This document shows, one piece after another, positions 35,917 to 43,037 of a stretch of DNA of 53,467 nt (positions are counted from its first letter, which is position 1; every line of letters starts with the position of its first letter). The DNA lies in the IMG/VR virus record IMGVR_UViG_3300004151_000011, positions 1-53,467 of that record; one strand, 5' to 3'. The DNA comes from a virus. The notes under the pieces were generated by a model, which ran no database searches, was not told the origin of the DNA, and was given only the letters and a program-made list of their open reading frames with translations. Both the position numbers and the translations under genes were made by a program.

Positions 35917-36147
35917 ATGACAAAGCTATCGACACTCTGCCGCGAACACGGCGTCACCCTAGGGTGGCTGGCAAAACACATTAAGCGTTCGCGCAACACA
36001 GTCAAAAAATACGGGCAGCCAGGGAGAAAGATCCCTGCCGAAGTGGTCCCGGACATTTGTCGGGCGTTCAAAGGGAGGGTCTCCCCCGACCAACTTCGCC
36101 CCGATGTTTTTGGGCCACTTAATTGCGCCTCTGGTGAGGCCGCCTAA
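35917..36147 (+). CDS. Cro-like regulator, probably leaderless
   Basis: A 76-residue protein with a helix-turn-helix (LCREHGVTLGWLAKHIKRSRNTVKKYGQPGRKIPAEVVPDICRAF). The -10 of its promoter ends at 35910, so transcription should begin at or next to the A of ATG 35917; no Shine-Dalgarno is present. It is the first gene of the rightward operon, as cro is in lambda. By analogy it would repress the CI-like gene. Confidence 0.75.
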   Translation: MTKLSTLCREHGVTLGWLAKHIKRSRNTVKKYGQPGRKIPAEVVPDICRAFKGRVSPDQLRPDVFGPLNCASGEAA

Positions 36148-38412: not shown

Positions 38413-38534
38413 CCCCGCCCCGCAAGCCCCGCCCCCCCGCTGATCTGCTCCGCCTCGCTGAAGCGGCACAGGCGCCGCTGGGGTGGGCGCCCAAGCTGAA
38501 GCCCCAGCCCCAGACCAAAGGGGGTGAGGGATGA
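38409..38534 (+). CDS. 41-residue protein between resolvase and DUF1376 gene
   Basis: ATG 38409 overlaps the resolvase stop and its TGA overlaps the next ATG. The product is Pro/Lys-rich (PPRKPRPPADLLRLAEAAQ). Double coupling argues that it is translated. Function unknown. Confidence 0.55.
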   Translation: MTPPRKPRPPADLLRLAEAAQAPLGWAPKLKPQPQTKGGEG

Positions 38535-39610
38535 CTGATTCCCTCCCTGCCCCCCTCGTTCCCGCCGATTGCGATCTGCGGGATTTTCCGCACATGCAGC
38601 TCGACGTGCAGCGCCTGCGCGATTCCGATTTTGCCGCCCTGGTCGATCCCGAAGCGGCCTGGGCCGGCGTGCTGCTGTGGTGCGCGGCGTGGCATCAAGT
38701 CCCCGCGGGGTCGCTGCCCGACGATGATCGAATCCTGTCCAATCTCGCTGGCTATGGCCGGGTAGTTCGAGTCTGGAAGCGGCACCGGGCGGGTGCACTG
38801 CACGGCTGGATCAAATGCAGCGATGGCCGGCTGTATCACCCAGTGATCGCCGAGAAAGCCCGCGAAGCGTGGCGCTCGAAACAGGCCCGACATCATGAGC
38901 GCCTCTGCGATCGAATCCGCAAAGAGAATGGCCGGCGCAAAGCTAAGGGCTTGACTGATCTCGAAATTCCGACCTTTGACGCCTGGATGGTCGCAGGAAA
39001 ACCGGCCGAATGGCCCCCCTCAGTTCCAGCGGAAAGCCCCGAAATTCCACCGGAACAACTCACATCTTCCGATGGAACCGCCGAAAGGTCTGGAGATGTT
39101 CCGGCGGAACACACCCCTGTTTCCGGCGGAACTGGAAATTGTTCCGGCGGAATTCCGGCGGAAAACGCTCTTAAGGGAGAGGGAGAGGGAGAAAGAGAAG
39201 AAAAAGAGGATTCCCCCCTGTGTGCCCCCCCCTTCGAAACCGAGCCCACCGACCTGACCGCGCCGGCTGCGCCGACGCCTGACCAAGGATCGCTCCATGC
39301 CATTGCCCGAAACAGCAGAACCCGTGGAACGCGGCTTCCGGCCGATTGGTGGCCTGATGCCGAAGATTGCACCTTCGCCCGAAACCTTAAGCTCGACCCG
39401 GCCACCGTCGCCGATCGGTTCCGGGATCACTGGCACGCCCAATCCGGACAGAAGGGGGTCAAGCTCGACTGGTCAGCGACCTGGCGCAACTGGTGCCGCT
39501 CAGACCACGGGCGCCACATTGGCCGACCTGGCCCCGGCTCAGGTGGACGCCACACTGGAAGCCTTGTTGCCACCGTCTGCGAACTCGTGGCTGAAGCCCG
39601 TGGTCGCTGA
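38531..39610 (+). CDS. DUF1376-type replication protein (origin-binding candidate)
   Basis: A 359-residue protein. The N-terminal 120 residues are DUF1376 (FPHMQLDVQRLRDSDFAALVDPEAAWAGVLLWCAAWHQVPAGSLPDDDRILSNLAGY... HGWIKCSDGRLYHPVIAEKAREAW), a winged-helix domain of phage replisome organisers. The C-terminal domain (RLPADWWPDAEDCTFARNLKLDPATVADRFRDHWHAQSGQKGVKLDWSATWRNWCR) is usual in this family. Between them, residues about 165-227 are low-complexity and are encoded by seven palindromic repeats and a purine tract, the apparent origin, as in lambda O. Confidence 0.86.
   Translation: MTDSLPAPLVPADCDLRDFPHMQLDVQRLRDSDFAALVDPEAAWAGVLLWCAAWHQVPAGSLPDDDRILSNLAGYGRVVRVWKRHRAGALHGWIKCSDGRLYHPVIAEKAREAWRSKQARHHERLCDRIRKENGRRKAKGLTDLEIPTFDAWMVAGKPAEWPPSVPAESPEIPPEQLTSSDGTAERSGDVPAEHTPVSGGTGNCSGGIPAENALKGEGEGEREEKEDSPLCAPPFETEPTDLTAPAAPTPDQGSLHAIARNSRTRGTRLPADWWPDAEDCTFARNLKLDPATVADRFRDHWHAQSGQKGVKLDWSATWRNWCRSDHGRHIGRPGPGSGGRHTGSLVATVCELVAEARGR
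39024..39210 (+). other. Candidate lytic origin: seven iterons and a purine tract inside the DUF1376 gene
   Basis: Eleven-base palindromic units TTCC-N3-GGAA start at 39024, 39045, 39067, 39099, 39121, 39142 and 39153; the last four share TTCCGGCGGAA. The spacings 21, 22, 32, 22, 21 and 11 are whole helical turns, so all lie on one face. Then 38 bases of purines only (39173-39210) follow, a likely site of strand opening. The protein product is expected to bind them. Confidence 0.8.
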
Positions 39611-40025
39611 CCGGACCACGGCCGATTTCGGGTGGGATCAGGAATTTGTCGGCTATCGCGTCGCTCCTGGTGTGCAGGTGCCAGCCTCGGAAATTGACGC
39701 CCTTGACCGAGCGATCGACCTGCACCGCCAAGCCTGCGCCCCGGCGCCACAGGACCGGATCACCACCGCGCTTGCCGAACTGCGGGTGCTGACCAAGGCG
39801 CGGGCCGAAGACTCGCTCGACCTGAAATTTCTGATCCGGGTTTATGCCGACCGCCTTGGCGAGTGGCCGGCGGACGTGGTGGCCCATGTGCTGCGGACCC
39901 AGGCCAGTGTCAGTCGCTGGTGGCCCGCCTGGGAAGAGCTGCAAGTTCGGTTGGAGACCTATGCCCGGAAGCGACGGACCCGGCTTAAGGCGCTCGAAGA
40001 TGCTCGACGGTCGATCCGCGGTTGA
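39519..40025 (+). CDS. Hypothetical replication-region protein
   Basis: About 168 residues from TTG 39519; GTG 39543 and a distant ATG 39297 are alternatives. The core (DRITTALAELRVLTKARAEDSLDLKFLIRVYADRLGEWPADVVAHVLRTQASVSRWWPAWEELQVRLETYARKRRTRLKALE) is helical and has the look of the gene after DUF1376 in related phages, where a helicase loader is expected. It overlaps the DUF1376 3' end in another frame. No proven function. Confidence 0.65.
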   Translation: MADLAPAQVDATLEALLPPSANSWLKPVVADRTTADFGWDQEFVGYRVAPGVQVPASEIDALDRAIDLHRQACAPAPQDRITTALAELRVLTKARAEDSLDLKFLIRVYADRLGEWPADVVAHVLRTQASVSRWWPAWEELQVRLETYARKRRTRLKALEDARRSIRG

Positions 40026-40960: not shown

Positions 40961-41371
40961 ATGACGGATACCCCCCAGATCACTGCCGAAGTTTCGCGCG
41001 TCGTTTCGGCATTCGTTTCGAACAATTCCATTTCATCTACCGAACTGCCCTCGCTCATCCGGTCTGTGCATGATGCCCTCGCAGGCCTCGGTCAGTCGGT
41101 CACCACCATCCCCGAGGCGCAACCGGCAGTGTCGGTCAAAAAATCGGTGACCCCGGACGCGATCGTCTGCCTTGAGTGCGGCGAAAAGCTGAAGATGCTC
41201 AAGCGGCACTTGCGGACCGACCACGGCCTGACCCCGGATGAGTATCGCGCCAAGTGGAGGCTGCCGGCCGATTACCCGATGGTTGCACCCAATTATGCTA
41301 CCCATCGGTCTCGGATCGCGAGATCCGCCGGCTTGGGGCACTGGCGGCGGGGCCAGCAGGCGGCCGAGTGA
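40961..41371 (+). CDS. MucR/Ros-family zinc-finger regulator
   Basis: A 136-residue protein of the MucR/Ros family. The zinc finger has C70-x2-C73-x9-H83-x4-H88 in CLECGEKLKMLKRHLRTDHGL, followed by the conserved TPDEYRAKWRLPADYPMVAPNYATHRSRIARSAGLG. Host MucR/Ros proteins bind AT-rich DNA and control cell-cycle, surface and virulence genes. A phage copy could silence phage genes or reprogramme the host. A 200-base AT-rich upstream region with a GACT-TACTT/AGTAA-AGTC-like hairpin suits MucR autoregulation. Confidence 0.9.
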   Translation: MTDTPQITAEVSRVVSAFVSNNSISSTELPSLIRSVHDALAGLGQSVTTIPEAQPAVSVKKSVTPDAIVCLECGEKLKMLKRHLRTDHGLTPDEYRAKWRLPADYPMVAPNYATHRSRIARSAGLGHWRRGQQAAE

Positions 41372-42573: not shown

Positions 42574-42651
42574 CGGTGTGTAGCTCAGCCAGGCCAGAGC
42601 ATCGCGTTTGGGACGCGAGGGCCGGCGGTTCGAATCCGTCCACACCGACCA
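42574..42651 (+). tRNA. tRNA-Pro(TGG)
   Basis: A complete 78-base cloverleaf with encoded CCA. Acceptor CGGTGTG pairs with CACACCG, anticodon stem TCGCG/CGCGA, loop TTTGGGA with anticodon TGG, T arm GGCGG-TTCGAAT-CCGTC. It reads CCA proline codons, which are used little by a GC-rich host but more by the AT-rich phage genes. Confidence 0.93.
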
Positions 42652-42652
42652 T

Positions 42653-42727
42653 GGGGCCTTAGCTCAGTTGGGAGAGCATCGCGCTTGCATCGCGAAGGTC
42701 GGGGGTTCGAGCCCCCAGGCTCCACCA
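42653..42727 (+). tRNA. tRNA-Ala(TGC), one base short in the T arm
   Basis: Acceptor GGGGCCT/AGGCTCC with CCA encoded, standard D arm, anticodon stem TCGCG/CGCGA and loop CTTGCAT with anticodon TGC. The T arm is GGGGG-TTCGAG-CCCCC, with six instead of seven loop bases, making the gene 75 instead of 76 bases. It begins two bases after the tRNA-Pro gene. Confidence 0.88.
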
Positions 42728-42785
42728 AGATCTGGTGCCACGCAAGGCGTGCGGTAATCAGGTTGTCGAGAACCAGACGGGGTGA

Positions 42786-42858
42786 TTGGGCGTAGCTCAG
42801 TTGGGAGAGCACCTTCCGGGCCGGAAGGAGGTCGGCGGTTCAAGTCCGTCCGCCCACG
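42786..42858 (+). tRNA. tRNA-like sequence, anticodon position GGC (Ala?), lacking U33 and CCA
   Basis: The D arm (GCTC-AGTTGGGA-GAGC) and T arm (GGCGG-TTCAAGT-CCGTC) are canonical and the acceptor TTGGGCG/CGCCCAC has one mismatch at the first pair. The anticodon stem CCTTC/GAAGG closes a loop CGGGCCG, so position 33 is G where nearly all tRNAs have U. CCA is not encoded. It is either a decaying tRNA or a tRNA-like RNA with another use. Confidence 0.55.
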
Positions 42859-42961
42859 CGATCTGGGTGCCGCAAGGCATGATGTAAAACGAGGCGTCGA
42901 GACCACGCCTATCGACAACCCGGCGGGGCGATCCCGCCACCAGACCCAAGACACCGACCAC

Positions 42962-43037
42962 GCCGCCTTAGCTCATCAGGTAGAGCGCCGGCCTTGTAAA
43001 CCGGAGGCGCGGGGATCGTGACCCCGAGGCGGCTCCA
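42962..43037 (+). tRNA. tRNA-Thr(TGT)
   Basis: A 76-base cloverleaf with encoded CCA. Acceptor GCCGCCT/AGGCGGC, D stem GCTC/GAGC, anticodon loop CTTGTAA with TGT, T stem CGGGG/CCCCG. The T loop reads ATCGTGA instead of the usual TTCGAnT, and the last anticodon-stem pair is C-A, so it is divergent from cellular tRNAs. Confidence 0.85.

Follow-up and report, generated by a model that had tools for sequence, protein, structure and literature searches.

Helically phased palindromes inside a phage DUF1376-type gene: the proposed initiator-binding part of a lambda-like replication origin

The DNA analysed here, referred to as the window, is the complete 53,467-nucleotide stretch of the viral record IMGVR_UViG_3300004151_000011 (IMG/VR). 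On its plus strand the open reading frame at 38531–39610 encodes a 359-residue protein that we annotate as a DUF1376-type replication initiator, based on matches to PF07120 and phrog_22470 and on 102 homologous loci. The PF07120 (DUF1376) match has an E value of 8.8e-7 and, at 29.7 bits, lies 0.4 bit below the Pfam cut-off of 30.1, which the Magia, D14L and YdaU homologues exceed. The match to phrog_22470, annotated 'replication protein', extends over residues 4–143 with an E value of 1.6e-40. A Pfam scan of the window protein to E 10 returned DUF1376 and Phage_186_Fil only, with no lambda-O family and no match to PF06970 (RepA_N), and a sequence search against solved structures gave no match. 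DUF1376 is described only as a domain of unknown function (PMC5795418), and no binding or replication experiment on the family was found in the literature searched.

An AlphaFold2 model of the full protein, built with 74 homologues, comprises a confident N-domain, a disordered linker (residues ~180–254) and a confident C-domain core. Modelled alone, the N-domain reaches a mean pLDDT of 93.6. It consists of the DUF1376 winged helix (residues ~18–104; 38582–38842, plus strand), which continues as a single helix of 35 residues (104–138; 38840–38944, plus strand) that is uninterrupted in both models and carries the motif HHERLCDRIRKENGRRK, from which the iteron class is predicted. The C-terminal domain (residues ~255–332; 39293–39526, plus strand) has a core pLDDT of ~70–96 and, judged from structural matches, a DnaT-like fold. 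For the N-domain the best-ranked matches are the staphylococcal plasmid RepA initiators 4pta, 4pql and 5kbj (Z 4–4.9), and all are weak: 4pql aligns with Z 4.9 and 4.4 Å over 84 residues, and 4pta is ranked first by Foldseek with a probability of 0.66 and E 0.37. The C-domain matches the ssDNA-binding domain of DnaT equally weakly (6aeq, Z 5.2, 3.2 Å over 67 of 72 residues; 4ou6, Z 5.1; Foldseek E 2.5–3). Nothing in the Foldseek search is significant for either domain (E >0.2), and Z scores stay at about 4–5. The two sets of matches are nevertheless coherent, and the models leave it possible that the N-domain is related in structure to RepA initiators and the C-domain to DnaT.

Seven exact TTCC-N3-GGAA palindromes are located inside this gene at 39024–39163. 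The units, listed without strand, are iteron 1 (TTCCAGCGGAA, 39024–39034), iteron 2 (TTCCACCGGAA, 39045–39055), iteron 3 (TTCCGATGGAA, 39067–39077) and four copies of TTCCGGCGGAA as iterons 4 (39099–39109), 5 (39121–39131), 6 (39142–39152) and 7 (39153–39163), the last directly abutting its neighbour. An earlier note, made from the sequence alone, had claimed seven such units with spacings of 21, 22, 32, 22, 21 and 11, and this held exactly. Its statement that every spacing is a whole number of turns holds at ~10.7 bp per turn and is only approximate at 10.5, while its description of the encoded segment as a low-complexity linker was confirmed, residues ~180–254 also being predicted disordered with pLDDT mostly <60. 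A 10.76-bp period describes the sites with a resultant of 0.99, a value equalled by none of 20,000 random placements of seven sites. Elsewhere in the 53 kb the exact site occurs twice (6670 and 46282). Against the 7 units observed, no more than 4 arose in any of 200,000 linkers redrawn with synonymous codons, and no more than 5 in any of 20,000 permutations of the gene's synonymous codons.

Counts for the TTCC site are based on 31 non-redundant genes, drawn from the 102 loci, that carry at least two TTCCN3GGAA units. These genes contain 124 sites in 34.7 kb, compared with 4 in 280 kb of flanking DNA, and 94 of the 95 gaps between sites measure 11, 21–23, 32–33 or 42–45, the remaining one being 54. 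The arrays comprise up to 10 sites, lie ~400–770 nt past the gene start and always accompany the gene. Between the window and locus L028, 54 of 56 half-site positions are identical as against 45 of 84 other array bases (p 9e-9); for L027 the corresponding values are 55 of 56 and 55 of 84. Half-sites are thus kept while spacers diverge, demonstrating selection on the DNA. Three homologues (L048, L057 and L069; gene nt ~432–486) additionally carry GGAATTCC arrays in 22–23 bp steps just 5' of their TTCCN3GGAA sites, that is, TTCC/GGAA half-sites in reversed order.

It could be argued that the repeats arose through selection on the protein, whose linker is repetitive, as the sites do lie within a low-complexity segment in which P-A-E recurs. 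However, translation of the window units uses two frames, one giving (V/I)P(A/P)E and the other SSDGT, VSGGT or CSGGI; the constraint therefore acts on the DNA and not on the protein. Class B homologues have units in all three frames and gaps of 23, a length not divisible by 3. The divergence of the spacers but not the half-sites and the exceeded synonymous nulls likewise speak against this explanation, which we regard as practically eliminated.

To survey the family independently of the TTCC motif, 86 homologous genes were scanned with an unbiased palindrome-array finder using synonymous-permutation nulls, with 140 neighbouring ORFs as control. A score of at least 8 was obtained for 50 of the 86 homologues and for none of the 140 neighbours. 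In the positive control, lambda gene O, the iterons were detected with a score of 7.9, reached by 0 of 300 permutations. The finder requires three near-perfect units, which is why it reports none for L065, L109, L199, L245 and L246, where weaker arrays are visible by eye. Most homologues without TTCC carry a different palindrome array at the equivalent coding position. Burkholderia-type homologues and phage Magia have TGTCCC-N2-GGGACA in 23-bp steps, Bradyrhizobium-type prophages (A/C)CGT-N-ACG(G/T), and a Synechococcus phage TCCCG-N-CGGGA; ATCG-N5-CGAT, CTGT-N-ACAG and AAGCA-N-TGCTT occur in further homologues. The ydaU gene of the E. coli Rac prophage contains three TGTT-N2-AACA units spaced by 33 and 23 bp and followed by an AT-rich stretch (L107:6012-6077; ~1421511-1421576 in E. 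coli K-12 NC_000913.3). Altogether about eight iteron types are found, at a conserved position within the gene. The palindromes might instead act as mRNA hairpins, since TTCC-N3-GGAA could give a 4-bp stem. The 0- or 2-nt loops of other classes (GGAATTCC, TGTCCC-N2-GGGACA) cannot form RNA hairpins as written, however, and helical DNA phasing would remain unexplained, so that this possibility is as good as excluded. The protein-repeat and RNA-hairpin readings were rejected on mixed frames and loop lengths.

The winged helix was considered as the element that sets the iteron class and was rejected: parsimony places 18 class changes on the winged-helix tree, most of whose branches are poorly resolved, and L032 and L052 have winged helices that are 84% identical and iterons of different classes. 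Class-diagnostic motifs are located instead in the residues directly after the winged helix, which are encoded immediately upstream of the iterons. They read R-x-R-K-x-N-K/G-x-R in class A, QR-x-K/R-TE-x-x-R-x-KKHNQRH in class B, RT-x-AATEAR in class C, GNAKRWG...IAPQS in class E, RT-x-AAR in class H, KAAANAR in class K and ASVQARRSRK in YdaU. Class labels were taken from the DNA ahead of any inspection of the helices; those of L020, L021, L025, L091, L199, L245, L246 and several class A members with few sites were assigned by eye. Nearest-neighbour prediction of the class from the helix was correct for 68 of 69 genes. When winged-helix relatives of ≥80% identity were excluded, the helix still gave 66 of 67 correct predictions, compared with 31 of 67 for the winged helix. 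In a new sample of 64 genes, 45 had a helix motif. Of these, 39 contained two or more sites belonging to the predicted class and the remaining 6 had too few exact sites; another class was seen in none. Helix and iterons thus co-vary. As the two are adjacent on the DNA, linkage contributes to this association and could inflate it; between distant backgrounds, however, class A helices are on average just 46% identical while the half-site stays the same, which fits functional matching. We infer that specificity helix and iterons are probably inherited as one cassette. Similar helices may also be matched to similar half-sites, R-x-(R/K)-K-x-N with TTCC/GTCC and R-T-x-A-A with (C/T)GT-N-AC(G/A), although this is tentative. 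Helices of class H, class C and YdaU (RARTEAARRAK, QARRSRK; L246, L107; compare window 38840-38944) may resemble eukaryotic bZIP basic regions, judging from their appearance only.

The homologue comparison bears on two further points of the earlier note. It had suggested aligning homologues to see whether the iterons co-vary with the DNA-binding domain. The outcome is favourable, as the arrays are kept in place, vary in sequence and co-vary with the protein; the proposal is refined in one respect, namely that the class tracks the helix C-terminal to the DUF1376 winged helix and not the winged helix itself. It had also held that homologues lacking the repeats would count against the idea; such homologues exist for the TTCC sequence only, and most of them have another array there. 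A possible objection is that the array is an origin read by some other phage or host protein. In support of this, the binder has no experimental identification, and genes for several HTH proteins lie immediately upstream of the window gene. Against it, the iteron class tracks one helix of the DUF1376 protein across many backgrounds and in the new sample, and about eight site types would not be expected for a host factor. We consider this alternative very improbable.

Downstream of the array lies an all-purine tract of 38 nt with GGGAGA repeats (39173–39210, plus strand). In many homologues the array is likewise followed by a (GGGA[C/G]A)n tract that is rich in purines, often AT-rich at its end and located, where measured, 22–102 nt from the start of the last iteron. 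The strict pattern (GGGA[CG]A)2+GGG, which does not detect a tract in every homologue, is present in 31 of 74 homologous genes compared with once in 628 kb elsewhere. Glycine codons within the homologues' tracts are GGA in 160 of 160 cases, as against 449 of 2,394 elsewhere in the same genes, and the tract repeat of L101 is a 7-mer and therefore passes through shifting frames. No strong AT-rich stretch was found in the window array region, where the best segment has 18 AT in 30. We propose, by inference, that the tract serves as an unwinding or single-strand-capture element. That the GGG repeats form a G-quadruplex was considered but not adopted, as many members, the window included, have only 2–3 GGG runs.

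In several relatives the neighbouring genes encode replication proteins. In Rac the DnaC-like loader gene ydaV adjoins ydaU (phrog_50, 1.7e-85), and the DUF1376-type gene is adjoined by DnaC/DnaI and DnaB genes in D14L, by a DnaB-like helicase gene in phi297 and by a primase/helicase gene in Ostro and L022. In the Synechococcus phage Ssp-JY42 the following gene (L111:4080-4496) is annotated as a DnaA C-terminal domain protein. The overlapping downstream ORF of the window (39564–40025, ~153 aa) has no Pfam or PHROG match and no recognisable helicase or loader; L027 and L028 have ORFs at a similar position. A set of Pseudomonas phage genes (L221–L240) shares only its last ~90–100 residues with the Ostro initiator and has a different N-terminal domain, a pattern that we infer is likely due to modular exchange of initiator domains.

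The closest parallel is lambda ori, which lies within gene O and consists of iterons followed by an adjacent purine/AT-rich segment (PMC6022878, PMC7466680). In lambda and its Stx-phage relatives 4–6 hyphenated-palindrome iterons are found mid initiator gene, about two turns apart (20, 24, 23 bp), and the window shares this arrangement, with an origin-like array inside the initiator gene and a purine-rich segment beside it. Lambda iterons bind O dimers, and plasmid iterons are generally helically phased (PMC5043065). Unlike lambda, the window family uses another initiator family, 11-bp instead of 18-bp iterons, arrays of greater length (up to 10), a tract richer in G and a class specificity linked to the helix after the winged helix. 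The earlier note had invoked the logic of lambda ori with a different protein family and different iterons. The difference was borne out (no lambda-O Pfam match; 11 versus 18 bp), and the shared logic is supported by the comparison, with binding by the protein and origin activity remaining inferred. Lambdoid phage origins are type-specific. A second parallel is provided by RepA_N plasmid initiators (pSK41, pTZ2162), whose winged-helix N-domain binds semi-palindromic iterons (PMC7145576); pSK41 exemplifies plasmids whose oriV, with its iterons, is located within the rep gene (PMC3155836). In the window family the N-domain is likewise modelled as a winged helix and the iterons lie in the own gene, yet the structural similarity is weak (Z 4–4.9), the Pfam families differ, and a DnaT-like C-domain is found in the window family, which occurs in phages of Proteobacteria and a cyanophage, whereas RepA_N systems belong to Firmicutes plasmids. 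Rac YdaU belongs to the Pfam family that the window protein matches just below the cut-off (PF07120; YdaU at 2.7e-26) and has palindromes in its linker, but with another iteron sequence and few units. DnaT resembles the window protein only in the fold of its ssDNA-binding domain (6aeq and 4ou6, weak), and to our knowledge has neither an iteron-binding winged helix of the window type nor a cognate origin.

Taken together, we consider it very likely (~0.85) that the (pro)phage's own lambda-ori-like origin is situated inside the DUF1376 initiator gene and that the array is its initiator-binding part, bound by the product of that gene. This reading rests on the winged-helix N-domain, the linker iterons, the purine tract, the DnaT-like C-domain and the helicase or loader neighbours in several relatives; protein binding, dimers, tract opening, helicase recruitment and origin activity are all inferred. 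In the mechanism we envisage, the DUF1376 protein would bind the helically phased palindromes, probably as one dimer per iteron, with DNA contacts made by the winged helix and chiefly by the long helix after it. Stacked in phase, these complexes would wrap the DNA, and the resulting stress would open the adjacent downstream (GGGA[C/G]A)n/AT tract, which is purine-rich; there the DnaT-like C-domain might hold single-stranded DNA and/or recruit a helicase loader or helicase.

The main competitor is an autoregulatory operator, in which binding of the protein inside the gene that encodes it would hold down transcription of the replication operon, with the origin elsewhere. Initiators often autoregulate, sequence alone cannot separate operator from origin, and no strong AT-rich patch lies beside the array. 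No useful signal came from GC skew across the window. Against an operator, up to ten sites lie deep in the coding sequence, ~400–770 nt past its start, and never occur apart from the gene; a purine tract is conserved on the same side of the array; the protein has a DnaT-like C-domain and its gene has replication-gene neighbours; and the lambda control has the same layout. We therefore judge the operator unlikely and retain the origin reading.

A bolder extension, towards which the evidence tips only slightly, is that DUF1376 proteins including E. coli YdaU are phage initiators, making up a large family not yet recognised as such, with the origin in the gene; they would read DNA via the helix leading out of the winged helix, with helix and iterons as a self-contained recombinable cassette and with Rac oriJ in ydaU. 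The origin of the Rac prophage is oriJ (PMC3945230), and the ydaU TGTT-N2-AACA array is a candidate position for it, inferred from its sequence. The origin reading offers a testable function for a widespread domain of unknown function, including that of YdaU, and would make origin locations predictable from the sequence itself for many phages and prophages, among them a candidate Rac origin in E. coli K-12. The family also supplies about eight naturally matched pairs of protein helix and DNA site, each encoded in one DNA stretch, for studying how a recognition helix and its site co-evolve. Where co-resident phages differ in iteron type, the difference would show which of them can share or disturb each other's origins.

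Two further features of the window were observed. A YdaS-like small HTH protein (35917–36147; PF15943, 7.9e-10) is encoded divergently from a repressor-like gene, an arrangement as in Rac (racR-ydaS), and four tRNA genes (Pro, Ala, Ala, Thr) at 42574–43037 lie near a MucR/Ros-type regulator gene (40961–41371).
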